Source: Terfezia claveryi (taxonomy: Eukaryota; Ascomycota; Pezizomycetes; Pezizales; Pezizaceae). Taken from it: 64,000 nt of DNA. Shown in pieces: positions 6,443 through 49,485 of the stretch (position 1 is its first letter; each line of letters opens with the position of its first letter). The position numbers and the translations under genes were made by a program. Where the stretch lies: assembly GCA_015179025.1 (NCBI GenBank), contig WHUX01000035.1, positions 124,001 to 188,000 on the forward strand, given 5' to 3'. A model generated the notes under the pieces. It made no database searches. It was given only the letters and a program-made list of their open reading frames with translations, and was not told the origin of the DNA.

Positions 6443-6472
6443 GGGAAGCAGTAGTCTGGTTGCGGGAAGCAG
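6443..6472 (+). repeat. Micro-insertion A: 12-bp core with 9-bp flanking repeats
   Basis: Core TAGTCTGGTTGC at 6452-6463, flanked by the direct repeat GGGAAGCAG at 6443-6451 and 6464-6472. It lies in the 5' flank of eIF5. Confidence 0.85.
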
Positions 6473-6559
6473 ATGGTTGAGGAATGAAAGACTATTGTGA
6501 GGCTCCAGAAGTCTCCGGACATTCGCATGGCAACAGTCGATATCCCGGCAGCCGCCTTG

Positions 6560-7100
6560 TATTCAAAAATTCACTTTGCAACAAATAATAATTTTTTGAT
6601 TGCGATTATATTAATAAGATTTCAAATGAAAGCTAAGATATGGAAGAATCAACTCCACTTTCTAATACTTCGCTTAGGCATCCCCCTAACAAACCTTCTT
6701 ATAGACACGCTGGATTTCTATAGCCTCCTATAGCCCAGATATTTTAATTTGGATTGAGGTCAGGTGAATAGGCATCCCAGTATACATTGGGATTAAACCT
6801 CCCTGTATACCCTCACTAAAACATCCCAACATCGTTTGAGATACCTTAGCATCGTTTCTATCTCAAACTTCTCACTTCAATCTTCTTACCTAGATATCGA
6901 AAAACCCCAAGTCTCTTGCTTGCCATACCCTCTCTCTACAGTAGTCTCGTCACTCCAAATGACATTTTTCTCCTACATAGAAGGAGTTCAGTGCCGATAC
7001 TTGTGAGCCCTGCAAGGGGGTGAGCCTTTGGAATCTCTTCCGTTAGCGTAATTCGTTCCAGCATCTCGACCACTTTCGAATTCTCTGCTCGCTTAACCTC
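6560..7100 (-). pseudogene. Tc1/mariner (DDE_3) transposase relic
   Basis: On the minus strand, the translation around 6960-6870 reads V-I-W-S-D-E-T-T-V-E-R-G, the first catalytic Asp block of Tc1-like transposases, followed by a GKQETWGF segment. Further downstream, around 6770-6730, A-Y-S-P-D-L-N-P and N-I-W match the SPDLNPIE-VW block that carries the last catalytic residue; here the Glu codon is replaced by a stop. Several stops and frame changes interrupt it, and the region between the two blocks is shortened. I could not define its ends or inverted repeats. Not functional. Confidence 0.8.
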
Positions 7101-7470
7101 CTCCTATTGGCCGAGGGGGACACATGAGGGGCAACACTGTTACAGTTATCTCGGCGCCACCCTTCTGCCTTCTGGAGTGGAAATCACAGCTTTGACTATT
7201 CGTTTTATCATCTGCAGGAGTTGTTTTGCGAGGTGCGCTGCGTGGCTCAAATTTGATTTCTGGTGGGGTCTTCCTTGGCGATCTGCCTGGATTGTATCCT
7301 GGACAGTTGAAGTTCATCCTGGCCCGCCCTCTGGTGCTGGAAATAGCTCCCTCTGATCGTCATATTTTTTCTTTTTCGGACGGCATTGTGTTGTGGTTAA
7401 TAATGCTGTCGGGGCGTGATCTTGTGCGGGGTTGTGTTGCATGCCAAGTGTCTGAACACTGATTGTGCTG

Positions 7471-7503
7471 TATCATTACGTGCCAACCAGACTATATCAT
7501 TAC
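7471..7503 (-). repeat. Micro-insertion B: 15-bp core (minus orientation) with 9-bp repeats
   Basis: Core GTGCCAACCAGACTA at 7480-7494, the reverse complement of TAGTCTGGTTGGCAC. It is flanked by TATCATTAC at 7471-7479 and 7495-7503. It is the only perfect-repeat copy in minus orientation. Confidence 0.88.
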
Positions 7504-9785
7504 CGTATGAATTGTATCTCGTCGGTGGAACTAGAAGCTTTTTGTTGGTGTTCAACTGATGTGTCGATAACTTATTGGTCTGAGAATTCTTTCTTATGGA
7601 CTGTATCTTGACTAGAACGAGCAACATAAACTCAATTGAAGTTCAGAACCTAAGTATTGGGTTTTGTTTGCTGATTTGATTATCTGCTCCCGAAGGGGTT
7701 TGTTGGAGAAAATTTTTTCGGATTCCCAGCTTCACGCTATATTGTATACTTTGGGATTAGACTAAAGCATTTGAAGACTTTTTGGCGGACACTGGGGTAT
7801 CCTATGAAACATTGGAACGTTACAAAGTAACCACAAAAGTTCAGCGTACACAGCAGGAATGTGGCGATTGCATTACCGGATACTCTGTGCGGTTGCGTAT
7901 GTTCGATTTGTCTGGTCCCAAGGAGGGGAGCACTCCCTATGCATCGACCAATGGTTTGACCACCCAGATACGAGTTGTTCAGTTATTCAAGTTGATTGGT
8001 TGGCAGGCTGTAGAGCTGTAAGAGTCAGGAAAGATGGTAAGGTGATTGGGATAGGGAAGGTGTGGCGTGATCTTCATTGCACTGACTACCAATCAGATCC
8101 TATTGAGATTCCATTAGAAAATATTAATAAACATATGGCTTATTAAGCTTCGCAGCCTTTGTTAATGTCCTCAAGTTAAGTTTTTCTTATTTCCAACCCT
8201 ATATTATTTACCCATACAACTCCATTGCCTCCAAATATCTTCAGAACACATATTCCAATGGCCTCCACCAACGTTACAGGTATATATCCTCTCATGTTTG
8301 ACTAACATGTGTTTATAGTACTTGCACTTCCACCTCCTCTACACAAAAAGCCCAAGCTCACGAATGGCTAGCCAACCTCTATGAAAATACCTAAATCCCA
8401 CACATCAACTGTTTTCAATAGCAACTGTTATGTATTGGGACTGCTCCCACAGAAATAATTGGCTTGCCACTCCTCAATGTTCTGATTTGCACACGGGTGC
8501 AAACTTTTCAGAGTGGCTGCACATGCCGTTGCAGCCTCTGGTCATACGATTGGGGCTGCAAAAATCCTTGGATTGGAAATCAAAATCAAGATCACAAATA
8601 TCCACAACATGTTTGGGCGGCTGCAGCACTACGGAATACACCTGGACAATTGTATGGAAAAGAGTCAATTTTCTGGGACAATGATTGAAGCAGGACCACA
8701 CAATTCGGATGTTTAAACCAGGTCAATTTCAACTCGGAATAAGTGAGAAGAGTCTAGTAACGCATCGAATTATGGCAGTGAAGGCCTCACAGACGGAAGA
8801 ATCTAGTTGGTCGAAAGATATCCAAGAGGCTGGCATCAAGGATGAGAAGTGGTTAGATATTCGCATTGGTGGATCGCAACAGGAGGATTGATGTTGTATA
8901 TGGGTTACTTGGGTGCCAAAGGCAGTTATATAACTACCTTTGAGCAAGCATTCAAGCAAACGGTGCAATTGTCATTGACAACATTGAACAGCGAGAGAAG
9001 CTTAGGGCAACACATCCTGGACCCACAGTAGGCCCAGTGTGCAGGTTTTGTGAGGTAGATCCTGAGCCAGGTAAGCACGTCGCCTTACCTGTCCCGCTGG
9101 AGAATGGATGGGTAGGAGGTGGAACTCATGGGGGCAAGCGGATGATAGGGAAAGGTGGTTGCGGAAGAGAAAGGACAGGGACAAAGAAGTCTTCGAGGAC
9201 CTGGTTGAGACTTTCTTTTCCAACCTCAACCTCAGATAAGGGGACGGGAGCTGGCGGCGGAGGTCATTACGTAGCTACTTTGTTGCGGTTTCTTTTGTTA
9301 TTGCCTATGCTTCTGGTACCGAAAGCATAGGTCGAAACTTTAAAGGGGAGGCTTCGGGACCTCTTCATGACCGTAGGTCGATTGCGAGTATAGTCTATTA
9401 AAAAAAAAAGTAAAAAAAAGGTTAGGCCAACACTCTCACTCCGAATAAGCTTTAACCTTGATTCTCCTCCTTGATCAAATTGGACGATGGAATGGAAAAT
9501 TTCTTATCCCACGATGAATACTCAAGAGATCTCTGTAGACCGAAAATAATAGCGCTGAGGGGACACCATTAGAGAGTGTTGACCATATCCTACAGAGACA
9601 AATCCGGGTTCTAAAGAACTTAATGTCCTCCTTTATACAATATTGATGCGGTGCGGTGATTAGTGGTGGTCAATAAGTTTCTGTAGAATCCTGTATCATG
9701 TTATGGGGTTTTTAGTGCAAGCCACACCTGTGGAGGGCAGCTACCTAACGCCACACACTAGCCAAAATAACTGAAACATATAATT
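7504..9785. other. Long region without a recognised gene
   Basis: Several ORFs of 60-97 codons occur on the plus strand (for example 7859-8146 and 9037-9330), but none shows a domain I recognise. Their frames change often, as in decayed mobile DNA. The last part adjoins a gypsy relic and might be its gag/pol 5' portion. Confidence 0.4.
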
Positions 9786-9818
9786 GACCAGCTTTAGTCT
9801 GGTTGGCACGACCAGCTT
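9786..9818 (+). repeat. Micro-insertion C: 15-bp core with 9-bp repeats
   Basis: Core TAGTCTGGTTGGCAC at 9795-9809, flanked by GACCAGCTT at 9786-9794 and 9810-9818. Confidence 0.9.
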
Positions 9819-10539
9819 AAATAGATTTTCTGTAAGTGACATGACGTATGTACACTGTAGTTATCATCACCACCTACAAGATGCCTCTATCAAGCTCTAT
9901 ATCAAATTGAAACTGAAGCTGAAAATACCGTATGTGCCTATACATTGGCATCTTCACCAGAAGAGGAGAATGAATATGAGGAAGATTTTGAGGACTTAGT
10001 TAACGATGCGAGAGGTTATTGCTTCTGACCGGTGCCTACTAGATCCGCACTATGTGTCCAGGAAGCTTTTGACATTGCATTTTAGGCAGTGTGTATTGAG
10101 GGGAGCCGGAGGGTCTATTTTCGAGCATGATTTTACAGGAGAGGGGTGATAAGTAAGTTGGAATGGAAATTCCGAGCTCGGTCAGGGAATTCTGTGTACT
10201 GACAATGGAAAATCTCAAAGATGTGGGAATCGTAATGTACAGTACATATCTCAACGATTGTCAGAGATATTTGAATACAGAACAGGAAGGGCTGGCAGTA
10301 CTGAGCTTGGGATACACGGACCACTCAGCGTTATTGAGTATATTGAGCAAAGGGGAGAAAAATGGGGCTCCCAAGAAGTGCCGGAGAGCGGAATGAGCGA
10401 CCGGGCAACAGGTTTGGAAAATTGGGAGGATGTCGCAATGGTAGAAAAGATGACTGAAGGGATAGATTTAAAGTGGAGCAAGGGGAAGGACGACGAAGAA
10501 GAGGGGGATCATTTAGGAAAGCAAGAAATGTTGAGAAAA

Positions 10540-11830
10540 CAAGAAAGTGAAGATTTGTGGAGAAAGTGGCGAAAGGACAAGTGGTACAGACTTGTTGTGG
10601 AATACAAGACATCGGGATGAGTAGGAGCAGTAGAAGGAAAGCAGGGAAGAAAAGTGAACGCGGAGGAGGACAGTGGAATGTTACTGTACAGGAGTCAGGG
10701 CAGGTTGTGAGGTGCGTTACAAGGAGAGATGTCCCAAGGATTATGCGGGGGATAACGATGAGCACCCTTGAAGGGAATTAATTCTGGCCAACGAGAGCAC
10801 GAGACAACTTCAGGTACACGGCAGAATGTGACTCGTGTCAAAGGTTCGGCCCATTGAGATCTCAAACCTATCTTTAATCTACAACCAATGGACATGATTG
10901 GAATGGACTCTATTGGACCAATTAATCCATGGGAAAAATCCACCAACAGCGAGTATGTCCTCATTTGTTGATTATTTCTCAAGGTTTTGTTCGCAGAAGC
11001 AGTGGAATCGGCAGATGGGGGAGTCAGTGCTGAGTATTCTCACAAAAATCGCGACAACAATCGCGACAATTGTGGGATGGCCGAGAGAGGTCTATTGCGA
11101 CAATGCAAGCTACATTACCAAAGGGGCCGTTCCATGAGAATTTTAGCAGAAAGGAGTAATTCTATTACCCCGTACCCATAACAAACCCATCGTCAATGGA
11201 TTTGGCAGAAAGATATGTGCAGATGATACTCATGGGCCTGAGAATAATTCTACAGGGAGAAAAACAACATTTATAGGAATGGGGCAAGTATGGTATTTTC
11301 AATCACGGCTATACACCAGCACAACTGTTCATGGGATGTAATCCAAAGGCCAAGGTGGAGGATCTGACAGTCAGGGAATATATATTGAGGAACATATGAC
11401 AGACTGGAAGGATGAGGAGGGGGTAGAAACGTGGATACAGGGAGAAGGCAAGTCAAGGATGGCACTGGTAGGTGAGCTTGGCTCGAGTGGAGGAAATGAG
11501 AGGACATGCGAGGGAGCAGGTGCTGCAGGAACAAGGAAAGATATTAGATAGGGATAACAGATGGAAAAAATAGGATGAACCGGAGCGAGAGGAATTGGTG
11601 TTGCTGAGACAATTTGCAGTGGATAAGGTCAAAGGGCCGATATTTTAAAGTGGGATTTTCGGGAGTCTGGGGGATATTATGACAGAGAAGGTCAAGGGGA
11701 GATATTCCTTGATGCAGTCAAGTTGTATTTTGTGAAGGAGGAGATGGTGCCAATTGGGAAGACAGAGTGGCTGAAAAAACAGATACGGGGAACAACGGGT
11801 GAGGATTGTCTGGAACCAAAAAGTAAATTA
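10540..11830 (+). pseudogene. Ty3/gypsy-type integrase relic
   Basis: Plus-strand pieces resemble the end of a retroelement pol. At about 10790-10850 there is a Y-T-A-E-C-D-S-C-Q zinc-binding remnant. At about 10888-10920 comes P-M-D-M-I-G-M-D-S-I-G-P, the first Asp block of an rve integrase core. At about 11070-11130 comes W-P-R-E-V-Y-C-D-N-A-S-Y, the second Asp block. Near 11590-11640 an E-E-L-V-L-L-R segment recalls the integrase C-terminal domain. Many stops and frame changes make it a relic. The repeat at 11846-11965 directly downstream may be its LTR. Confidence 0.72.
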
Positions 11831-11845
11831 ACCAAAGTTTACCCG

Positions 11846-11965
11846 ATGAGGTCATACGAACATACGCCCTAGCGTCAGGATTACAGAGATAGATCGAGAG
11901 CAGCAGGTCTGCGAGTGTAACCTTTATCTCACGCTCATAGAATTAAAAGATTTGACTTCACTAGC
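11846..11965 (+). repeat. LTR-like repeat E, copy 1
   Basis: Shares a long, slightly diverged stretch (beginning GATGAGGTCATACGA and including CTAGCGTCAGGATTACAGAG) with 44484-44580 in the same orientation. Its place after an integrase relic suggests a partial LTR. Confidence 0.65.
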
Positions 11966-12157
11966 TATATCATATATATTGCCAACTTCTCAGCTGCGAG
12001 CTAGTCAATTGCTGATCACCGGTACCCTGATCGGCATTTGTTTTCAGCCTTCAGCTCACCAAGTGGCAGCTGAGTAGAACAAAACAAAAATCAATCCTTT
12101 TTTTTGTCCTATCCGTCAAATTCAGTTCTCAGTGCTCCGGTGGAGATATCGAACGTC

Positions 12158-15184: not shown

Positions 15185-16029
15185 CGGTGTATAAACCACC
15201 TCTTTGTCTTCTATTACCTTATTCCTAGATTCGCATGATAATCGGCTGAGTACTCTAAATTTACTTCCTCAAGGCACATAACTGTACCACACTGGGACCG
15301 AATAGGAGTACGGTAATGTGTTAAAAATAAAAAAAAAAATAAAAAAAAAATCTGTAATAGCCTGATTAATTACATCACCAATTTGGAATACAGACGGAGA
15401 ACTAACCTTTCAGTAGACAGAAGCCTGGCTTTAATTCTATCAAGATGTCGCTTTAGCATAACGCACAAAGAGAAACCAGTCTCTGTCTGGCATGGATATG
15501 AATAGAAGTGGACCGATCTGAGCAGACCAGCTTACTGCATATTTCCTTTCGTAGAGTACTTTGAACTGATCGTCTCGATATATATTAGGAAACTCAAACA
15601 AGTACTGTTTATTGACGGGATAATGTAGTCTGGTTGGCTCGTAAAGTAATATCTAGGACAGAAATTCGAACAAAGCCTGCGAAAGCACTTCATAAGCCGT
15701 CTGATGTGTTAAATCAACAGACTGAATATCCCGCAGGAGCATAGCCATAAGTACTTACCGGAACAGAAGCTGTTGAAGGTGTTTTTGTGAATGACAATTC
15801 TGTTTTCCTTGGTTGTATGTTTGTACATTCACTTTCCACCCGAAATAAATAAAATCATCATAGGCATATATATTCTAACACAAAAGAAACCAGTCATATA
15901 TTCGGAAGCTACGAAACCTACCCATCTCCACAAATCTGAACTTTTCAACTAATCATCACCTCCCGTCACTCACCCGTGAACGCCAAGAGACTGGGCAGAA
16001 AATTCAGCAGCTATTGACCTTTTAGAATG
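15185..16029. other. Intergenic region without recognised gene
   Basis: A-rich tract at 15323-15350. One copy of the micro-insertion core is at 15626-15640. No conserved ORF seen. Confidence 0.55.
15626..15640 (+). repeat. Micro-insertion core D without flanking repeat
   Basis: TAGTCTGGTTGGCTC, one mismatch to the 15-bp core. The 9 bases on either side do not match each other, so it is either older or the product of a rearrangement. Confidence 0.65.
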
Positions 16030-16038: not shown

Positions 16039-16078
16039 TAGTCTGGTTACTCTCTAGTCTGGTTGGCACGTTACTCTC
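16039..16078 (+). repeat. Micro-insertions E1 and E2, overlapping
   Basis: E1 core TAGTCTGGTT at 16039-16048 has no clear repeat. E2 core TAGTCTGGTTGGCAC at 16055-16069 is flanked by GTTACTCTC at 16046-16054 and 16070-16078. The left repeat of E2 includes the last three bases of E1, so E2 entered after E1. Confidence 0.85.
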
Positions 16079-18083: not shown

Positions 18084-18714
18084 TCACAAAACAGTTAACC
18101 CGAGGTGGAGACGGATCCTGTTCTTCTTGTCATTCACTCTACCACCTGCAGGTAGCCCTAACGCAGTAAGAAGGTTGTTTACGGCTGCATCTATTAACAA
18201 TATTAAGGTTAGCCTTTGTGCTGTACATAAAGCATCCTTTTTTCACTTACTATCCATATCATGAATATCGGCAGTAGTCTGCGGAAACCCTTGAATTTGC
18301 TGACCGTCTAGAGCGAGTAACTCCTCCAATGGTGTGATATTGTTGGTGACTTTTGAATTGATTATCCTGGCGAAGTTGTTTCGATTCCTATTCTAGTGTC
18401 AGTGCAAATGTCTTTCCGTAGGTGTACTGATCTTATGATGTTGTCATACTCTCGAGTGAAGTCTCTGCGTAGGTCTCCCACCTCGGTGCGTAGGTTTCTC
18501 ACCTCGGTGCATAGGTTTCCCACCTCGGTGCGTAGGTTTCCCACCTCGGTGCGTAGACCTCTCATCTCGAGTAGGATCTCGTTCAGTTGGGCAGCCACAT
18601 TCACTACCGAGAGGTTTGGCATTCTCTCCATTTGCGTAGCTGCATTTAAAGCCCGTTGGCTGAGGCTCTCATGGCCTCTGCCAGAATATTGAAATTAGGA
18701 GGTTCTGCAGCCAT
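18084..18714 (-). pseudogene. Broken fungal coiled-coil protein gene with heptad tandem repeats
   Basis: Read on the minus strand from the ATG at 18714: M-A-A-E-P-P-N-F-N-I-L-A-E-A-M, then M-E-R-M-P-N-L-S-V-V-N-V-A-A-Q-L, then repeats of the seven-residue unit L-R-T-E-V-G-N, then a region ending D-I-H-D-M-D. An intron with GTAAGT donor and CTAAC branch site lies at about 18255-18197, and the last exon ends G-L-P-A-G-G-R-V-N-D-K-K-N-R at the stop 18086-18084. This order matches a family of uncharacterised fungal coiled-coil proteins I recall. Two frame changes, near 18675 and near 18385, without usable splice sites, break it. Function unknown. Confidence 0.6.
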
Positions 18715-19080: not shown

Positions 19081-20642
19081 CTAAGCATACAATACACCAC
19101 CTTTTTGCAATGAACGCTTGCTAGCTGTCTGCCGTGCCTGTCTTGCTTTCTCCGCAGCGGTGGTTTTATTAAGATCTCCAACTGCCTGCGCACCATCATG
19201 AGCTTGTGCAATGCTTCCCTTAGTAAAGGCTCGCATGTGTCTTTGGAGGGTCGGTGAAAGGTTGTTCTCTTCCATATAATGTAGCAGTTGATCGCTTTTG
19301 TGCTTAAGGCTTCTGACAGTTTCTGGAGTTACAGGCGAGCCGCTTAGAATCGGTGGAGGAGTTGATGGTGGAGGAGTTGATGGTTCAAACTCATCGCTGA
19401 AGTTGCTATCTATTTCAGCATTACTTCGAGAAGCTTGTTGGGCTTGTTGGATTTCTGGTAAACGATCGAGGACTATCTTCGGATTATAGGGGATCATGCC
19501 AGTCTTGCGGAATGCTGTACGGATAGTGGATTGCTTGAAGGCTTGTGTTCGGAAAGAATTAATAGTGGAAAGGAACTCTATCTTATTAAAGTCAGAACAA
19601 CCTTTGCGAGTAGCAGCATCAACAGCTTCTGCATGGAAGTGTTTATATGGTTGGAATACCACAACATCAAGAGGCTGTAGAAGATGTGTGGTATGAGGAG
19701 GAAGACAGAGTGGAACAATCTTATGCTCATTACAGTAATCAATAAATTCCGCTGTACAGTGTGAACCATACCTATCCAAGATTAATAGGCGATAAGCACC
19801 TAGTCGTCTTTGTGCAGAGAATTTATCGAAATGTTGCAACCACAGAAGTGTTAAGTGGCCATTAGAATATCCAGATTCCGAAACAGCTGAGAAAATCATC
19901 TGGAAGATCTGTATGTGTAAACCAACGTTCTTGATAGATAACTCCTGGAACAATGATTATTGGTGGAAGTGTAGAACCGTCAGCTGAAATTGTTTCACAG
20001 ACAGTAATAAGATCTCGATTAGTTGAACATAGGTTTTGCACGATCAAGCTCTCTTGTAACAATCCATTGATGCTTGCCAATACCAATTCGGAATCCTGTT
20101 TCATCATAGTTGTATTGATCTTGTGGTTCAATACCCTTTTCCATACATATTCTTTGATAGTCTTCAAGAAATTCTGTAATAGTCTCTGGTATTTGTGCAT
20201 TTTTCCGTGCAGCCTCAAGAGATACTTACTTACGAGTACAGTACTCTGGATATCGCTTTAAAAATCGCCGGACCCAATGTTCTCCTACTACCGGTGGTGG
20301 ATCATTGTCGCTGATATGATTCCGTCTTAAAACAGAATTTGCGCACTCAGCAATCATAGGAAGGCGAGCAGAAAGTCCCATTTTATCAAGGCGATCAATA
20401 TACTTGGAAACTGCAAGCTCTTCTGCTTCAGTAAGCTTTCTGTTGTGTGGTGGTCGTTCATTTAGTGATGGAATTCCGTTATAGCGGTCACGAAGCCTTC
20501 TCTCTGGTACAAAAAATTCTCGCGCCACAGCAGCAATATTTGGTCTTTCTAAGGTGGAGAGATGCTCAATAGCCTGCTGTATCCGAGCCTCAACATTTTT
20601 GTATGGCTCTATAACCTTACGAGGTGTGGGAGTTGTCGACAT
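19081..20642 (-). pseudogene. pogo/Fot1-type (DDE_1) transposase, broken
   Basis: Minus strand from the ATG at 20642. The N-terminal helix-turn-helix and CENP-B-like DNA-binding part (E-H-W-V-R-R-F-L-K-R-Y-P) is followed by the DDE domain: N-Y-D-E-T-G-F (first Asp), L-L-I-L-D-R-Y-G-S-H (second) and L-L-Q-P-L-D-V-V-V-F (third). The C-terminus has the usual K-G-S-I-A-Q-A-H and a basic tail. Lesions: an in-frame TAA near 20228 (inside a donor-like AAGTAAGTAT), one frameshift near 20035 and one near 19880. The catalytic residues are still visible, so decay is fairly recent. Inverted repeats were not identified. Confidence 0.85.
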
Positions 20643-20740
20643 TGTGAATCTCAGGTGTGAACGTTGAAAATTCTGTGGTTTGGTGGTTTGGCTGTGCTGG
20701 CGGGGGAGGCGCTAAGGAGAACCCCTGTTAGGCACGAGTA

Positions 20741-20789
20741 CAGTATAGGTAGTCTGGTTGCAGTTAGTCTGGTTGGGTTGCAGTATAGG
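20741..20789 (+). repeat. Nested micro-insertions F1 and F2
   Basis: F1: CAGTATAGG at 20741-20749, core TAGTCTGGTTG at 20750-20760, and its right repeat at 20781-20789. F2 sits inside: GGTTGCAGT at 20756-20764, core TAGTCTGGTTG at 20765-20775, GGTTGCAGT at 20776-20784. Removing F2 with one repeat restores a perfect F1. Confidence 0.92.
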
Positions 20790-26674: not shown

Positions 26675-26689
26675 TAGTCTGGTTGGCAC
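26675..26689 (+). repeat. Micro-insertion core G without flanking repeat
   Basis: Perfect 15-bp core TAGTCTGGTTGGCAC, but flanks ATATTATTG and GGGTTATTT do not match. It lies at the edge of a gypsy fragment, so a rearrangement may have separated the repeats. Confidence 0.75.
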
Positions 26690-27718: not shown

Positions 27719-27720
27719 TA

Positions 27721-29580
27721 CCGGGAAAACTGGTGAATAAGAGACCATGTCGGTTTTTGAGACATCTGCAAGCCACCATGCAACTGGGCGAGATCTCAAC
27801 ATGACAAGTTGGCAACACGGTCAACACAGTAGTTAGGAGGAAAAGGAAAAATGTAAGTACGTATTATCGACATTATCGGATTAAAGTTCAATATTCCAAT
27901 ACCCAATAATGTCTACAATTCTAAGCTCAGCTACTAAGTCCACCCGACCAGGGCCTAAGGGCAAATCTACTTCTCTACAACCTAGGAGTGTCAATTCTCT
28001 GAACCGGAGGTTACGGAGTAGCAGAAGAAAGTCATATACAAGAGAGTTTAAACTCAAGGCATTAAGCATGCTCCAAAAGTCCCGTATAGATCCGAAAACA
28101 GGAGCAAAGATACCAGCAAGCATAGGATGTAGGTGCCAAATGGACTCAGTTAATATAGGCATTGGCTGATATAATTGGAAGGGGTCTCTCGAGAGCTTAA
28201 TATTACAAAGCCAATGCTACTGCGCTGGAAGGAGCAGGAAGCTAAAATAGTAGCAGCACGGAAAGGTTCGAGGCAGGTAGAAAGGCCGCCTAAAGGTGTT
28301 TGGCATGAGATGGAGGCAGTGCTACATACTCGCTTTATAGCTATTCGGAAGCAAGGAAAGCCTGTAGGACAGCGTTGGTTTATACGAGAAGGAAAGAAGA
28401 TATTTGAAGAGCGAGAGGAAGTTAGAGTGGATGCTGCAAATAAGAAGCGTTATCCATGTACATTCTCTAATGGGTGGTTTGAAGGGTTTTGTGAGCGATG
28501 GAGCATTTCATGGCGGGTAAAAACCAAAGTTGGACAAGATGCTCCGGATGATAAGGCAAAGGCAATACAAACCTTTCTACAAGAAATACGACGAAAATCT
28601 CAACCACCAGCAAGATCTCAACAACACAATCGATTCCCACCTCAATATATCTATAACATGGACCAGACACCATTACCTTTTGAGTTCCTACAAAATCGTA
28701 CATTTGATACTAAAGGCACAACTACTGTCTTCATTCACACTGAGCATACCTCTTGGACAAAACGACAAGCAACTCTCATGATCACTGCCTGTGCTGATGG
28801 AGAACTCCGATGTAAGCCAATCTTGGTATTCCATGGCAGTTCTACTGTTGAGCAGCAGCCTCGGAAAGAAGAACGAAAGAAATACCATCCTGGTGTTACG
28901 GTCTTCTTCAATTCTACAGCATATAGTAATGAAGAGATTACTATGAAATGGATTCAGCATGATATTTGCGGAACTACCTCTTCTACATTAGAGCTACCGC
29001 AACCTGAACGCTTAGTAGTATTGGATGTTTTTAGTGGTCAAAAAACTAAGAAGGTCCTGAATGCTATGAAAGAGCGACATATCATTCCAGTATATATTCC
29101 AGATGGCTGTACAGGATATGTTCAGCCTATGGATACAATTCTTAACAAGCTAGTTAAGGATAAAATTGCGGATATTTTAGAGGAAAAGTTGGAAGCAGTT
29201 GGGGAAACAGATGAGAGTGTTGGTTGTCGATGCATTCTCATAACTGAAGCAGTTGGACAAGCATGGCTTTGGTTACATACAGAGAAAAAAGAGAGTATCA
29301 TTAAGTCTTTTAAACAGGCAGGTATTTCTTTATCTCCTGATGGGACTGAAGATACAAAGCTTTATGTGCGTGGCCTCCCAGATATTACGGTAGGGCCATG
29401 GCAGATAGATGATGCGTTGGGGTCTGATGAAGAGGTTGAGTATATAGTGGAGGCTACAGACGGTGTTCATGTAGAGCCCCCTGTCTAAGCAACAGATTCA
29501 GGTAGAATTAGTATTAGTGCGCTTTGTAATTAGAAATGTCTCAAAAACCGACATGGTCTCTTATTCACCAGTTTTCCCGG
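27721..29580 (+). mobile_element. Apparently intact pogo/Fot1-type transposon
   Basis: 1860 bp between TA dinucleotides (27719-27720 and 29581-29582), the target duplication expected of Tc1/mariner/pogo elements. Terminal inverted repeats are perfect over 45 bp and begin CCGGGAAAACTGGTGAATAA. It contains one spliced transposase gene without lesions. It lies in a patchwork of older repeats. A 138-bp MITE with nearly the same ends lies at 49595-49732. Confidence 0.92.
27909..29488 (+). CDS. pogo/Fot1-type DDE transposase, two exons
   Basis: Join of 27909-28128 and 28182-29488, 508 aa. The 53-nt intron has a GTAGGT donor, a GCTGAT branch site and a GGAAG acceptor; phases close. The N-terminal part has a helix-turn-helix with R-R-K-S-Y-T-R-E-F-K-L-K-A, then V-S-R-E-L-N-I-T-K-P. 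A CENP-B-like second DNA-binding part has F-S-N-G-W-F-E-G-F-C-E-R-W. The catalytic domain shows Y-N-M-D-Q-T-P-L (first Asp), L-V-V-L-D-V-F-S-G (second) and G-Y-V-Q-P-M-D-T-I (third), the DDD triad of this superfamily. There are no internal stops, and the flanking inverted repeats are perfect, so this copy may be active. Confidence 0.88.
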
Positions 29581-30876: not shown

Positions 30877-31060
30877 TGAAAGGACATGTGACAACACTAC
30901 CAAGTTACCCGATCTGGTCATTAGATAGTTGACAGGATCCTAGTCTGGTTACAGGATCCGTAAGGTTAAAACGTTCGGATCCACCATGATCTGTTCTCCC
31001 TTCTCTACACACATCACGAATACATCGTAGGATCATCATACTTCAGACCTTCTAGTCCTT
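30877..31060 (+). repeat. LTR-like repeat F, copy 1, carrying micro-insertion H
   Basis: 30877-30934 (TGAAAGGACATGTGACAACA onward) and 31029-31055 match 42966-43024 and 43052-43077. Micro-insertion H: repeat ACAGGATCC at 30932-30940 and 30951-30959 around core TAGTCTGGTT at 30941-30950. Confidence 0.75.
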
Positions 31061-33814: not shown

Positions 33815-34190
33815 AATTTTGTTTGCAGCACTGCATGTCAAGGGCTTGGTGAAGTCTCGATCTAAAAGACTAAAAATGGTGTGGTTGGGAGACTACCAAG
33901 ATAGGACTAGCTTAATGACAAAAAGGGTAGACTGGGAGATACCGGAAAAGGTATGGGCCAAAAAAGGACTACCTGTGTGATTTCTCAAAAAGGCTAGTCT
34001 GGCAAAAAGGCAACCATCCAATGATACCGAAAGAAGAAGTCAAAAATTCTAAATACCCCAATTCGTGCTACGGAGGGAGACTTTCCCGCGGGATCTCCTA
34101 CTGTAGTTAATAATTGGCACTACCTAGACCTGCTAGCGTAGTCACTACCATATTCAACTCGGATGATCTCAAATGGCACTAAGTCCTTCA
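33815..34190 (+). repeat. Dispersed repeat R1, copy 2, carrying micro-insertion L
   Basis: Full-looking copy, from GCAGCACTGCATGTCAAGGG to CTCAAATGGCACTAAG. Micro-insertion L at 33987-34012: CAAAAAGGC, core TAGTCTGG (8 bp), CAAAAAGGC. R1 copies near 16500 (minus strand), 39583 and 43730 lack the insertion. Confidence 0.85.
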
Positions 34191-34499: not shown

Positions 34500-34525
34500 C
34501 CAATCCCTAGTCTGGTTCCAATCCC
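34500..34525 (+). repeat. Micro-insertion I: 10-bp core with 8-bp repeats
   Basis: CCAATCCC at 34500-34507, core TAGTCTGGTT at 34508-34517, CCAATCCC at 34518-34525. The bases before the repeats differ (G and T), so it is 8 bp here, or 9 bp with one mutation. Confidence 0.75.
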
Positions 34526-38796: not shown

Positions 38797-39001
38797 CAGT
38801 GTTCTCAACAGGCCAGGCCGGGGCCGGGCCTTCCTATTCAGGCCGCCTGAATAGCCTGAATAGCCTGGACCATGGCCTGAATAACCTGGACCACGGCCTG
38901 AATAGCCTGGACTACGGCCTGAATAGCCTGGACCATGGCCTGAATAGCCTGGACCACGGCCTGAATAGCCTGGACTACGACCTGGTCGGTTGAGAACACT
39001 G
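38797..39001 (+). mobile_element. MITE with 13-bp inverted ends and an internal 21-bp minisatellite
   Basis: Ends CAGTGTTCTCAAC (38797-38809) and its exact complement (38989-39001), like hAT element ends. The inside, about 38845-38985, is about six and a half copies of a 21-bp unit (CCTGAATAGCCTGGACCATGG type) that leaves one frame open as a seven-residue repeat. No exact target duplication was found. Confidence 0.65.
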
Positions 39002-40156: not shown

Positions 40157-40192
40157 CTACGTTGGATTATTCTGACCAACTGGTACACTATC

Positions 40193-40576
40193 ATGGATCC
40201 ACAAGCCGTCCTACCGCCAGCTGTCAGGTTCCAGACCTGGAGGAACTCCCCTATCCCCTCAGGTCTGAATGAGTTGAACGCGTATCGTCGAGAAATAATC
40301 GACATCTTTAAAGCCATGGACACCATCGGAGCAGGACTTGGCAACCACCTGGCCGTAATTGAACGCCAGCTGAAGTCGGCCGATGAGGAGATCTAGTCTG
40401 GTTGGCACGAGGAGATCATGGTCCTACAGAAGGACCTTGATGAGACGAGCACAGCACTCACGGATGAATGGACTACAGCTTCTATGTACTTGGTAGAAGT
40501 CCACGCTTGTCGTGGCATACTTCCGCCTCGCAATAGGCAAGGTGGCGTCATCATATCCCTCAGGCGATGCATATGA
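40193..40576 (+). pseudogene. Retroelement gag N-terminal ORF, stopped by micro-insertion J
   Basis: From the ATG at 40193 (M-D-P-Q-A-V-L-P-P-A-V) an open frame runs to K-S-A-D-E-E-I, where TAG at 40394 ends it. The TAG is the first codon of micro-insertion J: repeat GAGGAGATC at 40385-40393 and 40409-40417 around core TAGTCTGGTTGGCAC at 40394-40408. The addition is 24 bp, so the frame resumes as M-V-L-Q-K-D-L-D-E-T and stays open to 40576. Predicted helical, as in gag-like proteins of gypsy elements. The rest of the element is missing after a (TAA)n tract. Confidence 0.75.
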
Positions 40577-40589
40577 TGTTAAACAAGAA

Positions 40590-40590
40590 G

Positions 40591-40626
<36 letters not shown>
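40590..40626 (+). repeat. (TAA)n microsatellite
   Basis: About twelve TAA/AAT units just after the gag relic. Confidence 0.9.
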
Positions 40627-40628
<2 letters not shown>

Positions 40629-41009: not shown

Positions 41010-41747
41010 AATTTAAAAAACTGCTTAACCACCCTTGTTGCTTAACCTAGGTGTTTAACCAAATAGAGATGAGAATGTGATTTAATTGCTGATACCTCTT
41101 GCGACACAACCATTTGCATTTTATTTAACTGCTGACTCATGGGGCAAATCAACACAGCCATTCCAGCATTGCATACTCTAGCATGCTGCATATGTACCTA
41201 TTCCGCATACCTATTCTGCATACCCCAAACGAAGCCAGCATGCCCCCCCCCAGAGGTCTATGAGCAGATTGCTTCCCTCGTACCTAACTTCTCTTGATTA
41301 TCCTCCATCCATCCAACAAGCCTTCCTATGTCTGATTTATCCCATGCTTTGTAACCTCTGTCGCCGACGCCGACGCCGACGTCTTACCGATCGGTCGTTT
41401 GGATGAGGGGCGTGTACTTGGCTCTTCCGATGGGGATGGTGGGCTGGATTGAGCTGGTTGGCCAGATGGAGGGTGGGAGCTCAGAGAGAACACCGTGAAG
41501 TCGTTGGTGATTGCGGTTGTGGAGCTTGATTCGCCTTCGTTGAGTTCATGGAGTTGCGTTCACTGCCTTATGACTCAGCAACTTAAGCAGGTTTAAGCAG
41601 GTTTAAAGCACTCTGGAGTGCTTTAACTTGCTTAAAGTTGCTTAACCATGATATGATTGCTGATTGGCTGGTTGCCGTTGTCGATTTGCACGGGTACCCC
41701 ACACTAAGGTTAAGCAACAAGGGTGGTTAAGCAGTTTTTTAAAACGG
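41010..41747 (+). mobile_element. MITE-like element with 36-bp inverted repeats
   Basis: TTTAAAAAACTGCTTAACCA onward at 41010 is matched by its complement ending at about 41747; the repeats run about 36 bp with no mismatch until the last bases. Internal sequence (about 735 bp total) has no transposase. The right edge adjoins R1 sequence. Internally there is a GCC/GAC tract near 41364-41382 and a small palindrome near 41605-41628. Confidence 0.8.
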
Positions 41748-41838
41748 GATCTCCTACTGTAGTTAATTGGCACTACTTAGACCTGCTAGCGTAGTCACTA
41801 CCATATTCAACTCGGATGATCTCAAATGGCACTAAGCC
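41745..41838 (+). repeat. Dispersed repeat R1, 3' part only
   Basis: Matches 34085-34190 (CTGTAGTTAATTGGCACTAC to AAATGGCACTAAG). Confidence 0.8.
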
Positions 41839-43850: not shown

Positions 43851-43949
43851 AAGCTTAGATATGGCAGAGCGGACAGGATGCCTCGTTTTCTTCAGTCTAT
43901 GGTCATAGATGTTTGGACCAAGTGATCCGATGATGTATACATACTGACT

Positions 43950-44288
43950 GTGAAAACAATGGCCTCTTCTTCCAAATCTTCAGTTGTCCAACAGCATCAG
44001 GCATGGTCGGAGCTTGACCGGTTATGCCTCAGGGTAGCGCCTCCGCATATTGAAGGATTACTCCCCTTTTCTCTTCAAGCTGAACCTACAGCCAATATCA
44101 GGGACCTACAAGATGTTCTACAGCGTGAGGAGAAAAGTATTGAGACTCTAGAAATTCAATGCAGGCGTCTGCATGTTCAGCGCAGGATCACTGACTTTCT
44201 GGTGCCTCCTCTCCTTGACATTCCCGCCTCCACACCTACTACTCTCGTTTGGATATTTCTTGTTTATATGCTCTGCTTGGATTCATAA
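43950..44288 (+). pseudogene. C-terminal fragment of a pogo-type transposase, copy 2
   Basis: Contains H-I-E-G-L-L-P-F-S-L-Q, L-Q-D-V-L-Q-R-E-E and V-Q-R-R-I-T-D-F-L, clearly related to 26212-26568. It begins with a short unrelated N-terminus (M-K-T-M-A-S-S-S). Not a complete transposase. Confidence 0.6.
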
Positions 44289-44483
44289 GCCTATTCCACA
44301 ACATTTCCTAGCGCTATTTAAATTCATTTTATAGTTACCTATTTTCTCTTGCTATAAGCATATATTGGTTACAAGCATACTTCTCCCGGTCCGAACGATA
44401 TGCTTGTATCGAGAGTCCTCTGTAGATCGCATTTCAGAAATGAGAATACCAAGCGCTCCGCAAGATTACAGGAACCCATCGCA

Positions 44484-44580
44484 CCGATGAGGTCATACGA
44501 CCTAGCGTCAGGATTACAGAGATAGAGTAACGTTCATCTCACGGTTATAGAATAAAAGATCTGGTTTTCATCTCCCACAG
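44484..44580 (+). repeat. LTR-like repeat E, copy 2
   Basis: Matches 11846-11965 with a few differences and a short internal deletion. Confidence 0.65.
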
Positions 44581-45374
44581 TTGTTGACCACACCAGGAGA
44601 ATTCTGGCATCTTGACCTTGAAGGATAACACTGTCTACTCTGCTACTCTGTCAAGTTTCCCTTGTTTGACCGCCGAGGTTGAACTTGTCGGGGACTCAGA
44701 TACGTGGTCTGAGTTTGAGTGAAGGCTGTGTCGAGCCGTGATTAATTGCTTAAGCTCCTATCTAGTCAGGAGTAAATGTGGATACGCCGAAGGAATCCAA
44801 CCTGTCAGGCCGGAGGAGACGGGAAGGCGAGTGCCAAACGAACGGGTAAAGTCTTGAGCACTGGCTCGGATCACACTGTTATCCACGAGGTCACAGTGTC
44901 TCAATCATCGCTACAAAAGAGCGGCAGAGCTGCAGCAGAGGGCCCGAGAGAGACAAGACAGAGAAAAGAAGAGATGACAGAAAGGGAAAGAGAGTAAACT
45001 GCACCCTTGAAAACCCTGTCTGTATGCTATCTCCTTTGTTTTTCAACTATCAGGGGAGGGAGCGATGGGGCTTATTCAAGCCGGTTTTTCTAGTATTTCG
45101 CTTCAATATATTTTTGGCGAGGTGTTCCATGGGATATTTTGGTCTATGCCTTGGGGGGTTGTTTTGATATCGAGCAGCATTATCATTGTTGCAGATTATA
45201 GCAATTTTCTTTGTAATTTTTATGATTCTACTTGACTGTGTGCTGTGTAGTGAAGATGCACACACATGGTCCTGGGATACTCTTAATTTTTAAGGGTGGG
45301 TGGGTCACTTCCACGAAACTTGGAGGGCACATAAAAACGCTAATGTCAGTGTCGACCAAGGGAATCAATGAGTA

Positions 45375-46066
45375 CAGTCTAACCTTGCTATACCGGACGA
45401 CCAAAATCCAGCCATTTCTGTCCGGTATAGCAAGGTTCCGGTATGAAATAATACAAGGGTACGTGGGACAAGACAAAAGTTACCAAAGAAGGAAAATTCT
45501 TCAACTTCCGTATATTTGAACATTAAGCTCATCAGTCAACATGTTGCGTGCAACAAAAGCGTTCAGCGCTCACCATATTAGAGAAGCACCAGATCTGTAA
45601 AAAGCGACAAGATCCTAAGCATGCGAAGGAGAAATTGAGTGAATTTGGAAATCATTTCTTAGACTCTGAGGTATGAAGAATGGTAAATCTATGTTGGTAG
45701 AGATCCTAATATAAAGCAAGGTCGAGCTGTACCAACATCCACATTGTCGGACATCTTACGTGATACATAGTAAGAAATGGCTTGAGGTTGATGTTACAGC
45801 AGTCGATTCATGGAAGTAAAAGGAGCGAACATCTCAATACCCAGTTCTGGAGCAGTGTCTACTTAAGGATTCCGTTATAGCAAGGGCAAAATATATGTAG
45901 ATAGTAGTAACTTCTCTGTATTCGCTGTCCAGTCCGGTATAAGCAAAAATCCGTTATAGCAAGGTGATTTAGGTGAAAAGTAACTAGTTTGGTGGCGGGG
46001 CTTAGGGGTATTCCGGTATAGCAAGGTTTCCGGTACAACAAGGTCCGGTATAGCGAGGTTAGACTG
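45375..46066 (+). mobile_element. pogo/Tigger-like non-autonomous element
   Basis: Ends CAGTCTAACCTTGCTATACC and the complement of CAGTCTAACCTCGCTATACC, with TA on both outer sides (45373-45374, 46067-46068). Subterminal repeats of CCGGTATAGCAAGG occur several times. The middle (about 45570-45840) still carries eroded stretches that recall the N-terminal DNA-binding part of a Tigger-type transposase (K-K-W-L-E-V-D-V-T-A-V). The catalytic part is missing. Confidence 0.75.
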
Positions 46067-46130
46067 TATGTGGGAATTGAAACCCAGATATACCCACCTC
46101 TGCACCGCAGGTCTCTCTACATGGCAGGAG

Positions 46131-46730
46131 TCATACAGTTAGGTGGCAATGAATTTGGTACCCCGCATAACAGGGGGCGAGTATGTAGCATGCTTTAAAC
46201 CTATAATATAAACAGTGCGGCAGAAATCCAGGGCTTTCTGTCCGGTATAGCAAGGGTTCCGGTATAGAAAATGGCGCTAGCCCTCAGACAGGGGCTGACC
46301 AGTCACGTGGGTTCTGAGAACTCCCATTTTGTCCTCCAATAAGGGTATTTCGAGTCACATTAAGCCTAACAGAGTAGGTTATTCAGCAACCAGACCTGCC
46401 TCGTCCGGTATAGCGAGGGAGAAATGTATGGGGACAGGGATAAGAAGACCCCTGCACTCCTCTACCACTCTGTCCGGTCCGGTATTGTATGGCCGTCCGG
46501 TATAGCGAGAGGCAATTTGCTGGTAAGAAATCCGGAAGCCTCTGGTATCAAGGGTAGACTGTATGCTAAATATGTGCTAATGCAGGACTTTGATATAAGG
46601 GAGGTACCTATAACAGAGGGCGAGGATGCAGCACGCTTTAAACCTATAATATGTGTGCTAAATGTATGCTAATGCAGGACTCTAATGCAAGGGGGGTACC
46701 AAATTCATTGCCACCTAACTGTATCATTAG
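46131..46730 (+). mobile_element. Composite of inverted repeats and a second Tigger-like fragment
   Basis: ACAGTTAGGTGGCAATGAAT at 46135 onward is inverted at 46695-46728 (about 33 bp). Inside, a block ending GCTTTAAACCTATAATAT occurs twice in direct orientation (about 46175-46205 and 46620-46651). CCGGTATAGC motifs and a GGTAGACTGTA end near 46553-46564 suggest a second Tigger-like copy inside. Boundaries uncertain. Confidence 0.5.
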
Positions 46731-49475
46731 ACCACTGTGCCTTTTCGGTTGTATTTCCCTCGTTTACGTATCTGATAAAGGGGTACTTATCCTGCAACCC
46801 GACACTAGTACTAAATCCTCTATGTACCTACTACATTAAGTATGCAAGGTCGATAGGCTGCAGCCTAAAGAAGAATATTGACTAATTCCATTTTGGTAGT
46901 CAATACTGAAATGGGTTAGGGTTCGTCTGAACATCCGGTCCGTATATATCGAGCCTCTGAATATTACTTAGTCAAAGGCCAAAACACTAGAGTGCATTGA
47001 CTTACTAGCCCGCCGATACGGACATGAGTATGGTTCATATCTTCGGGATAAAGGACGATCAAGCTTAAGTACATCATGCCAAGCCCGCTCATCCAGACCA
47101 ACAACTCCCCCTCCGGCTCATAATCAAATGGGTCGTGTATATAAGAGTAACAAAGGTTAAGAAAAAAACTGTTAAAGATGTTCAATGAGGAAAAACAAAA
47201 ACTGCCATCCCTTGGTTGCCCGATTGAACCAATACCGTGATATGGAATGAGTCTAGTGTATTTAGTTTAGTTTGCGTACGTTTGCGGAGTTGGTTTTTTC
47301 TTGTTCTGTACTCACTCTGTTCCTAGATGTTGTAGGTAAAATTTCTACAAGCAGGAGGAACCTCTGCATCGTAGGAATAACGTCTATTAAGATTGTGATT
47401 GATTAGGTCAGGCAGGACCATGGAGAGCCCATACTGATTGATTTAGGTCAGGAGCGCATAACATACCCCATACTGATTTTTTTGTTTTTCTTTATTTTTT
47501 CTCAGTCGCAGAACGTGTTTTGGGAGAGGGTAAGTCTCATCCACGTACAATTCGTTTTGATATGGTTGTATAATTGGTTTCTGGATGTATATATGCCGAA
47601 ACATTGACCACATTAGACATATCGCTTTCGCATGGATGCCCTAGAGCTACACGTTGGTAAGGCTTTTGTTAGTTGCAACTGCAATCATATCTTTTGTCGC
47701 AATACAGTCAATCCACATGCATCATCACCTAGATTGAATTTCGGATTTTCCCCTGATGGCAGCAGAAGCAGATCCTCAGCCACAGCTGCATGGGAGTTAA
47801 CCCTTGCATCGATATCTCTCTTCGCCCAGTCAGACTATTCTTCGCCTACCACTTTCTATGAGAGCCATCCTGGTTGCAAAAGCCAGAGTAGCACCACCCC
47901 TCGTAGACACATCCGCCAATTCCCTTCGGCATTGAGTTAATTGCGCAATGGCGTTTTTGCGTCATCCATAGGCCATCCATGAGCCACCCGTAAGCCATTC
48001 TATCTGCTGGCTTTGACTAGTAGCTGTATATGGAGTTATCAGTTATCACCACCATACACATGTTACCTTGGGAGTATATGATTTGGATGATTGTGATAAC
48101 ATCAAAATTGATGAATAATTGAGTGAAATCCTTCTTTCTTTAGGGCCTTTGGCTGACACTCTCCCCAGGCGGCCCCAGGCATGATCTTCGCTCAGCTCTT
48201 ATGCTCCTGGAGAGCATACATTGAAACGTTAGTTTTATATACCCTCGCATATTCCATGATTCACGCACCATCACACCCATGCCTAATATATATACCATAC
48301 AGCAGAGACGTCCCATGTGCTTAGGCTCCTCCCTCTCCCTCCCCCTCCCCACCAACTTCCATTACTGATGGCTCTGGTAGTGCTATTATTGCTAGTCTCG
48401 ATCAGACCCTCTACGTATATTATTGCATATAGTTATTGATGCTGTTGCTGTTAGTTATTGCATCCTCCATCTATCTACTTATGTTCTAGATAAAATATTT
48501 AATCATTCAATATTCTGGCATGAGACTATCAATATTCACAAAGTCAAAAGAGTGCCGCACTCCTTTGTCACCTTCATTGCAGTACTGTGGTAGGGAGATA
48601 TACAGCGAACTGGAACACTAAAAAATGGATATGCTCGCTCATTCTTCACAGTCATATTAAGGCAAACAACTTTTTGCCTGCACTGGGAGTGGAACTTGGG
48701 ACCTCAATAACTACTTATGCCTTACCTCGAATTGCAATTGCGCCCGGTGTTGGCCAATACAGCCCCCACGCACCCTCGGAACCAAGGGTGTTCATGGCAG
48801 CAGACTCGAGGATGTGGAGATACCTTCTAGTCTCTTCCCAGAACTCCATTCACTACTTCAACCAAAGAGTTGTTGAGTGAATGCAAAGTTTATCATCATA
48901 TATTGTGACTGTTGCTCTAGCGCGATGGAAAGGCTCTCAAAACCCAGCCTCGTACAAACCAGTCTGTTGTCTATTGGGGGAGTTGCGAGGTCACGAACGC
49001 TACAAAACTATTAACATGGGTACGGGCCTACTCAAAATCCTAAAATCTCTAAAATAAAGGAGAAAAGAAAACGTAAGAGTTTCTTCTAAGAAAAACCTTG
49101 CATGTACAAAGTATTGTTCTGGTTGTGACTTGAACAGACTATGCCAAGACAGTGACTCAATTGATATAAATGTGCACTCAATCGGCATAATTAACGATTG
49201 GTTAATTGTAATCTCATGATCAGGTTTGGTACTCGAACACGGCCAAGTAATCGTTGCAGGTACAAGTTGAAATTGCAGACTCCCCAAGAAGAGGGTCCAT
49301 TGAGCAAACCTCTATGCAACAAGGAGTACAATACGTATAGGAGATTAATCACACTACGTAAGTGACCCGCAGCAATGGTCAGAATCTGACTGCGTCTCTC
49401 TTGCAGGTTCAGGGTCATGCGCCAAAATCAATATTGAAGCACATCATACGCTTCCTTCCCTCCAAAATATCGATC
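46731..49475. other. Long region without recognised gene
   Basis: Only short ORFs without family features (for example 47632-47940 on +). Possibly old mobile DNA; I see no RNA gene here. Confidence 0.45.
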
Positions 49476-49485
49476 AACCAGACTA
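49476..49485 (-). repeat. Micro-insertion core K, decayed flanks
   Basis: AACCAGACTA, the complement of TAGTCTGGTT. The flanks AATATCGAT and TAATTCGAT agree at six of nine positions, so this may be an old copy or chance. Confidence 0.4.

Follow-up and report, generated by a model that had tools for sequence, protein, structure and literature searches.

Short TAGTCT-starting insertions with nine-base target duplications in Terfezia claveryi, possibly the scars of a DNA transposon

A constant duplication of nine bases is typical of DDE transposases and not of target-primed reverse transcription; hAT elements duplicate 8 target bases, the P element 8 bp, and Tn5 tagmentation likewise duplicates nine. 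In one-ended transposition of the Tn3 family, the insert has one fixed and one variable end and is flanked by a target duplication. In the P element, the 5' strand is reported to be cleaved inside the terminal repeats, at a depth of 17 bp (PMC7776569). The footprints of Mutator, hAT, Stowaway and Harbinger elements are described as a few bases, as messy deletions or fillers, or as precise (PMC4423477, PMC5225508). Rice excision sites reportedly kept exactly the two target copies in only 8 of 94 cases (PMC4423477), and a Mutator-like element in yeast is reported to have shown ~90% precise excision when flanked by target duplications (PMC5225508).

Here we describe a family of very short insertions in Terfezia claveryi. 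The window, meaning the whole 64-kb stretch that was analysed, is contig WHUX01000035.1 of assembly GCA_015179025.1, positions 124,001-188,000 of the forward strand, and window positions count from 1. A first-pass annotation had listed 14 copies of a core that starts TAGTCTGG. All 14 were found, with slightly corrected positions (33995 instead of 33996; minus-strand copies at 7480-7494 and one ending at 49485). A fifteenth, at 53833, was absent from that list, has no flank repeat and is probably a chance occurrence. The 15 observed copies compare with 2.07 expected. The window also contains sister-family insertions at 48393 and 48516.

6443..6472, + strand: insertion TAGTCTGGTTGC (6452-6463) between GGGAAGCAG repeats; exact 9-base repeat
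7471..7503, - strand: full 15-mer (7480-7494) between TATCATTAC repeats; exact 9-base repeat
9786..9818, + strand: full 15-mer (9795-9809) between GACCAGCTT repeats; exact 9-base repeat
15626..15638, + strand: TAGTCTGGTTGGC, core match of 13; flank repeat undetected
16039..16048, + strand: TAGTCTGGTT without a flank repeat of its own; overlaps the target of the 16055 insertion
16046..16078, + strand: full 15-mer (16055-16069) between GTTACTCTC repeats; exact 9-base repeat, nesting
20741..20789, + strand: outer insertion starting TAGTCTGGTTG at 20750, with CAGTATAGG repeats; exact 9-base repeat at 31 bp
20756..20784, + strand: nested insertion TAGTCTGGTTG (20765-20775) between GGTTGCAGT repeats; exact 9-base repeat
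26675..26689, + strand: full 15-mer; exact flank repeat absent
30932..30959, + strand: TAGTCTGGTT (30941-30950) between ACAGGATCC repeats; exact 9-base repeat
33986..34011, + strand: TAGTCTGG (33995-34002) between CAAAAAGGC repeats; exact 9-base repeat, empty paralogous sites
34500..34525, + strand: TAGTCTGGTT (34508-34517) between 8-base CCAATCCC repeats
40385..40417, + strand: full 15-mer (40394-40408) between GAGGAGATC repeats; exact 9-base repeat
48384..48426, + strand: sister-family long insertion TAGTCTCGATCAGACCCTCTACGTA (48393-48417) with TATTATTGC repeats; exact 9-base repeat
48507..48537, - strand: sister-family insertion TAGTCTCATGCCA (48516-48528) with TCAATATTC repeats; exact 9-base repeat
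49475..49485, - strand: TAGTCTGGTTG; exact flank repeat absent

Exact 9-base flank repeats are present at 9 of the 15 copies (6452, 7480 on the minus strand, 9795, 16055, 20750, 20765, 30941, 33995 and 40394), and a tenth, at 34508, has a repeat of 8; both counts agree with the first-pass annotation. The remaining five have no flank repeat of 7 or more bases, and at 26675 it has perhaps diverged. The second 9-mer of the 20750 copy lies 31 bp off because the 20765 insertion is nested inside it, and the 16055 insertion sits in the edge of the older copy at 16039. Of 10000 trials at positions drawn randomly from the window and from C1:1-200000, 88 gave an exact 9-base match at a distance of 6-119 bp, so about 0.13 exact repeats are expected among 15 sites and the nine are, as had been claimed, no coincidence.

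In a set of 114 sites the repeat is exactly 9 bases long at 15, 10 at three and at least 12 at one. Repeats of 4-6 bases show no excess over shifted controls. Those of 7-8 bases slightly exceed the control (6 vs 1.3), so the duplication is not invariably a perfect 9. A mode of 9 bases agrees with the fixed-length duplication expected of cut-and-paste DNA transposon products and with the ~9 bp expected of Mutator-like elements (MULEs). The hallmarks of a non-LTR retroposon are absent, as the duplication is near constant at 9 bp and the listed payloads have no poly-A or simple-repeat tail. Not every copy carries the repeat: it is missing, allowing one mismatch and searching within 119 bp, from 73 of 138 examined TAGTCTGG sites. 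Any target motif is weak at most, with T avoided at position 1 and A at position 9 (50 sites, uncorrected).

Insertion is demonstrated at five loci, which include short, long and sister classes, by paralogous sites that are empty and hold the nine bases once. Five paralogous copies of the repeat lack the 33995 insertion, and one of the five has a further deletion nearby. Together with the 9-base repeats, these payload-free sites bear out the structure first proposed, a target duplication plus a tiny payload inserted into a previously empty site. Because every payload begins TAG, a stop in one frame, the insertions can interrupt reading frames. The one at 40394 breaks an open frame, at most a candidate gene, which has 61 codons with the insertion and 196 across the joined flanks. 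At 5 of the 11 window sites a longer spanning frame resulted when the flanks were joined, with the largest gain at 40394 and the next at 48516; at the other 6 there was no gain.

The prediction that copies would number in the thousands genome-wide was correct. The full 15-mer TAGTCTGGTTGGCAC occurs 2885 times against 0 for the reversed-pattern control, and the 11-base end TAGTCTGGTTG 5960 times against 57, an excess of ~5900 in 72.6 Mb. A sister-family 16-mer, TAGTCTCGATCAGACC, has 363 copies (control 2). The 17-mer has zero copies in viral contigs.

The first base of the payload is fixed, the far end is variable, and there are two length classes. In the unselected 264 kb, payloads measure 7-15 bp at 19 sites and 25-36 bp at 7 (two of these with a nested copy inside), and none measures 16-24 bp. 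The 15-bp limit first proposed for the core holds for the TAGTCTGG copies of the window, but elsewhere payloads reach 36 bp. Where the flank repeat can be recognised, the insertion is usually a single element end, cut off after ~8-15 or 25-36 nt, with the 9-base target sequence on either side. The sister families TAGTCTCGATC and TAGTCTCATG show the same behaviour; seven sister-family sites behave alike with TAGTCT as the sole common sequence, and we therefore take TAGTCT to be the shared end. The short class ends at 15, several bases ahead of a hairpin that starts at ~20-22. Among 11 folded long tails, five end at a hairpin or one base past it (two of the five being identical in sequence), and the stem sequence varies by subtype.

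Two-ended forms also occur. Genome-wide, 66 loci have two full ends within a span of 30-96 bp: opposed full 15-mers span 30-34 bp at 2 loci, 35-65 bp at 49 and 66-96 bp at 15. In 16 of the 49, a rough check of the three following bases indicates that one side stops at 15. Two full 15-mers are fused into a 30-bp unit that is flanked by an exact 9-base repeat. A fusion of 15+10, 25 bp long, is also present, and we found a full 51-bp hairpin palindrome along with palindromes and near-palindromes of 41-50 bp. Most copies, however, are single-ended and do not have terminal inverted repeats on both sides. The first-pass annotation had raised the idea of longer elements with core termini and 9-bp duplications, and no long pair was found: among end pairs up to 25 kb apart in the 264 kb, only one, of 34 bp, has 9-base repeats. 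With that one pair, the 264 kb holds no high-copy, two-ended elements of tens to hundreds of bases as in MITEs.

We looked for a parent element in the sequence beyond the payload. No longer common sequence was recognised behind 84 ends, many of them covered for only ~70-150 bp beyond the end. Twenty-two pairs among them passed the length filter; by eye, we put all of these down to copies that are nested, palindromic or adjacent, or to weak matches with gaps. For Mutator-like elements there were 21 matches, of which we read 20 loci with ~1.5 kb per side. None of the 20 shows a TAGTCTGG terminus within that distance, which leaves the suggested Mutator-like link unsupported. One 8-mer is present at L060, L054 and L065 have TAGTCTGGTTGG within long inverted repeats but off the repeats' outer edge, and two loci end in a different terminus, CGGACTGACTC. 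The P-type RNase H transposase profile PF21787 had no match in the genome, but its control was equally silent. KDZ (PF18758) gave 9 matches, which were counted only, and hAT (PF05699) at least 150, counted without reading termini; neither is tied to TAGTCT ends.

We judge it an evenly balanced proposition, and our leading one, that the insertions are scars of a putative TAGTCT-ended DNA transposon family with a staggered cut lying ~15 nt, or else ~31 nt, in from the terminus. Its transposase would duplicate 9 target bases upon insertion and later leave the site, or the insertion would fail to complete. The second strand would be cut ~15 nt inside the element or, alternatively, ~31 nt inside, beyond the small hairpin, so that each flank would keep a 3' overhang of element sequence. 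The two tails would be on opposite strands and non-complementary, which predicts the near absence of 15+15 fusions (the 2 loci of 30-34 bp). One tail would be retained by being ligated to the opposite flank at its recessed 5' end, whereas the other would be lost precisely at the element boundary, and both 9-base copies would stay intact. Trimming of a tail ahead of ligation would give the shorter payloads. We infer the long staggered cut solely from the 15-nt limit. As scars from which both tails were lost we sought payload-free 9-base tandem duplications and found 12 in the 264 kb; next to 13 of period 8, 5 of 10, 1 of 11 and 7 of 12 this is no clear excess, and a small one is still compatible. 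In favour of scars we count the sharp 9-base repeats, the fixed start, the two length classes, the like behaviour of the sister families, the empty sites and the two-ended products. Against them, a single cut position leaves the 25-36 class unexplained, neither the parent element nor an end-linked transposase was found, the duplication is not invariably a perfect 9, about half of the examined TAGTCTGG sites lack the repeat, and known excision sites are usually messier. The first-pass suggestion of footprints from a larger element survives as the leading reading, but no larger element was recognised behind the 84 ends.

It is possible, though we lean against it, that short DNAs themselves insert, as a micro-element family of 15-36 bp with one-ended or aborted integration. 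A transposase would attach one end to a target cut with a 9-base stagger, and the remainder of the element (or of the donor, if that is a palindrome of ~50 bp) would be trimmed before repair. Only micro forms were found, with no clear longer form behind the 84 ends; an opposed full end lies within 65 bp of at most 102 of the 2885 full 15-mers; the 51-bp hairpin and the 41-50 bp palindromes and near-palindromes are present; and the 4-6-base repeats expected of nibbling after excision are at control level. On the other hand, the 7-8 bp minimum and the taper down from 15 resemble trimming of a fixed-length tail, and a lone 15-bp fragment has no evident route of replication and would depend on a donor supplied in trans. 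More tentatively still, the 15-36 bp units may be no relics but what actually moves, which would make them the smallest insertion unit known, and the genome would then contain no full-length element. A transposase working in trans, either on single ends or on the ~50-bp hairpin, would have spread them to thousands of copies, with one-ended integration giving the 9-bp duplication. We think it unlikely that the insertions are RNA-templated, with cDNA synthesis starting at a nick in the target and reading from the 3' end of a small hairpin RNA that ends GUGCCAACCAGACUA. Stops before and after the hairpin would then yield the two length classes, and the fixed start, the variable end, the five long tails that end at or just past a hairpin and the failure to recognise a longer DNA copy all fit. 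However, the constant 9-base duplication fits DDE transposases better, two-ended inverted products are more easily made from DNA ends, and the short class stops well before the hairpin begins.

Ordinary footprints of resident Mutator-like or hAT elements seem to us quite improbable. Both groups are present, Mutator-like elements with exact 9-base duplications at L049 and L050 and hAT by its matches, but the Mutator-like termini, where seen, are CGGACTGACTC and unlike the TAGTCT end, the 9-base scar is at 0 of 4 CGGACTGA sites vs 21 of 55 TAGTCTGG sites in the 264 kb, and the hAT copies, counted only, would be expected to leave 8 bases. A library or assembly artefact from the adapters of a transposase-based library would share the nine-base signature of Tn5, but this and chance are exceedingly improbable: the 15 copies against 2.07, the reversed-pattern controls close to zero and the absence of four adapter 12-mers from the 264 kb speak against them, and the insertions also nest in one another and have many subtypes.

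Excision and failed insertion are usually hard to detect since the scars are tiny or messy, and here they are long enough to count. If they are scars, the genome keeps a ledger of transposition events without a surviving element, and this ledger records where the cut fell, how the break was repaired and which targets were chosen. If the short units are instead mobile, mobile DNA can be smaller than has been known. Such scars were not found described in the literature on footprints and transposases covered by our search, which most subscription papers fell outside, and among the listed matches for papers containing one of three end sequences none was relevant by title or abstract opening.

Like MITEs and foldback elements, the two-ended forms here are short (30-51 bp), non-coding and palindromic, but the bulk of the insertions is single-ended and, to our knowledge, far shorter than any MITE. 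With the footprints of Mutator, hAT, Stowaway and Harbinger elements they share small residues at or near target duplications; they differ in retaining up to 36 bp of one end, in having both duplications intact where recognisable, and in their thousands of copies. Tn3-family one-ended transposition has the same combination of a fixed end, a variable end and a target duplication, but its inserts are bacterial and far longer, whereas these are at most ~36 bp in two discrete classes. The Drosophila P element is likened here by cut geometry, without a claim to P superfamily membership: in both, a long staggered cut (proposed in our case) leaves element sequence on the donor flanks, and the target duplications are near in size, but the insertions in T. 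claveryi have a limit of 15 nt and another length class at around 31, a 9-bp duplication and a TAGTCT terminus.

In the window, which spans C279:124001-188000, we counted 15 copies of the end pattern TAGTCTGG; in 100 shuffles the mean was 2.07 and the maximum 7. The first-pass annotation had reported exact 9-base flank identity at nine copies and 8 bases at a tenth, and our re-measurement of the 15 copies agrees; by chance, 9 bases recur unchanged at a distance of 6-119 bp at 88 of 10000 random positions. We scanned both strands of the assembly (72,558,070 bases in 794 contigs), and the predicted genome-wide abundance was borne out, with 1432+1453 copies of the full 15-mer TAGTCTGGTTGGCAC and 0 of the reversed pattern. 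The pattern TAGTCTGGTTG gave 2935+3025 (reversed control 32+25), and the 16-mer TAGTCTCGATCAGACC, from a sister family with only TAGTCT in common, gave 188+175 (control 1+1). In 264 kb that we did not select (the window and C1:1-200000, C1 being another contig), we found 26 TAGTCT insertions whose payloads measure 7-36 bp between exact 9-base repeats. This density, about 1 per 10 kb, extrapolates to roughly 7000 insertions genome-wide, with diverged repeats left out of the count. The feature is real, and its number and cleanliness are surprising.

For 51 sites we removed the payload, joined the flanks at a single 9-base copy and looked for paralogous copies that match across the junction. Five loci had such paralogs, which shows that the payloads are insertions; at the remaining 46 there was no spanning match except the site itself within the sequence examined.

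Loci with empty paralogs
Window 33995: 8 bp payload; five paralogs empty, one with an extra deletion nearby
C1:152120-152134: 15 bp payload; one empty paralog
C1:141826-141835: 10 bp payload of sister family TAGTCTCATG; one empty paralog, in the window
C1:152579-152612: 34 bp payload; two clean spanning paralogs, two others deleted at the site
C1:65869-65902: 34 bp payload; one empty paralog

The length of the flank repeat is sharp at 9. Among 114 TAGTCTGGTT sites, tried at payload lengths of 8-17 with shifted controls, it was exactly 9 bases at 15, 10 at 3 and at least 12 at 1; repeats of 7 to 8 bases numbered 6 versus 1.3 in the controls, and those of 4 to 6 bases were not above them. Joining the flanks gave a longer open frame at 5 of 11 window sites tried, and the copy at window 40394 splits a frame of 196 codons, against 61 with the insertion. 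An ABC transporter fragment (best named match Trichoglossum hirsutum, 43% identity; the other named matches listed are all fungal) indicates that the DNA probably comes from an ascomycete.

In copies with the flank repeat, TAGTCT begins directly after the 9 bases. This start was our search anchor, but in a scan of 9- and 10-base repeats without it the payload edges were again most often TAGTCT and AGACTA. Payload lengths in the 264 kb fall into a short class of 7, 8, 10 (four), 11, 12 (two), 13 (two), 14 (two) and 15 (six) and a long class of 25 (two), 31 (two), 34 (two) and 36, with none of the 26 at 16-24 bp; a nested copy sits within the 31 at window 20750 and within the 36 on C1. A larger, selected set (138 TAGTCTGG sites in 337,607 bases, palindromic copies counted on both strands) had 27 payloads of 8-15, 33 of 25-38, 5 longer and 0 of 16-24, while 73 sites had no 9-base repeat even allowing one mismatch. 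In long payloads the 15-mer is followed by a tail, for example AAGCCTCTCGTAGAGA, AACACCCTCCTGTTGGAGG or AATCCCCCCGCCAAACGGG. When we folded 11 tails, the hairpins of two were matched in just 0.5% of shuffles; another three, of which two are identical, stop at, or one base beyond, a short hairpin that is weakly supported (6-10% of shuffles), and six were no better than shuffles. AA directly follows 1616 of the 2885 full 15-mers, where base composition predicts about 7%, which suggests that roughly half of them are of the long class.

At three loci, L031 (C2:195850-196350, on a further contig), L032 and L029, insertions of several subtypes are densely clustered and nested over a few hundred bases, with newer ones sitting inside older payloads. 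Two other repeats were seen.

Other repeats
Window 41022-41047, window 41708-41733 and C1:141639-141664: 9-base repeat around ACCCTTGT (tgcttaacc ACCCTTGT tgcttaacc), two in one orientation and one in the other
Window 18466-18570 and 38833-39000: arrays of tandem repeats, period 21 bp

Opposed full 15-mers are few against 2885 full ends: 2 loci span 30-34 bp, 49 span 35-65 bp (some of them nested or adjacent events) and 15 span 66-96 bp. A crude test, which looks only at the next three bases and scores variants like AGCACCC as stops, splits the 49 into 28 where the sequence runs on beyond the 15-mer at both ends, 16 where one end stops at 15 and 5 where both do. Locus L040 is a 30-bp two-end fusion with an exact 9-base repeat, L080 a 25-bp fusion of 15 nt from one end and 10 from the other, and C1:88848-88881 a two-ended 34-bp element whose flanks agree at 8 of 9 bases. 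There was no clear excess of 9-base tandem duplications without payload, so one end is normally kept.

We assign the insertions to scars of a TAGTCT-ended DNA transposon because this covers most of the facts, and we give it an even chance of being right. That the 15-36 bp units are themselves mobile is a good deal less probable. Searching the 264 kb and 20 loci with Mutator-like transposase matches for TAGTC...GACTA pairs separated by up to 25 kb and flanked by 9-base repeats, with one mismatch allowed, we obtained only the 34-bp element described above. Among 84 ends compared, for many of which the comparison reached only about 70-150 bp past the end, 22 pairs were similar beyond position 38; by eye these were copies that are nested, palindromic or close to one another, or weak matches with gaps, and we rejected them as a shared element body. 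The search only rules out that full-length copies make up more than a few per cent, so the genome may hold tens of parent copies.

Mutator-like transposases gave 21 matches in the genome, KDZ (PF18758) 9 and hAT (PF05699) at least 150; the P-type profile PF21787 had none, and its control was equally silent. Two Mutator-like elements of about 2.6 kb (L049 103-2738, L050 541-3158) have exact 9-base duplications and the terminus CGGACTGACTC, which left comparable scars at none of 4 sites in our sample. TAGTCTGGTTGG lies within both long inverted repeats of the Mutator-like L054 (near 611 and 3018; repeats of at least 333 bp) and L065 (near 134 and 2671), neither with a 9-base duplication. By eye only, pogo/Tc1-type transposase-like open frames lie at window 19081-20711 and 28175-29488.

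A long staggered cut would account for the intact duplications, for the survival of one end when the other disappears precisely at the boundary, and for the 15-nt ceiling tapering to 8. We infer each step from the structures. The second strand would be cut 15 nt within the element, leaving each flank a 15-nt 3' tail, the two on opposite strands. One tail would be kept by ligation to the opposite flank's recessed 5' end, and the other would become a flap, trimmed at the duplex edge, sparing both duplications. The 25-36 class would require a second cut position or a tail-protecting hairpin. An insertion begun and then given up could yield the same structures as excision. Rice excisions (PMC4423477) are perfect in 8 of 94 cases and usually messier, which counts against ordinary excision as the source. 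The P element is cut 17 nt inside its own repeats (PMC7776569); the scar model would place a comparable cut at 15 nt.
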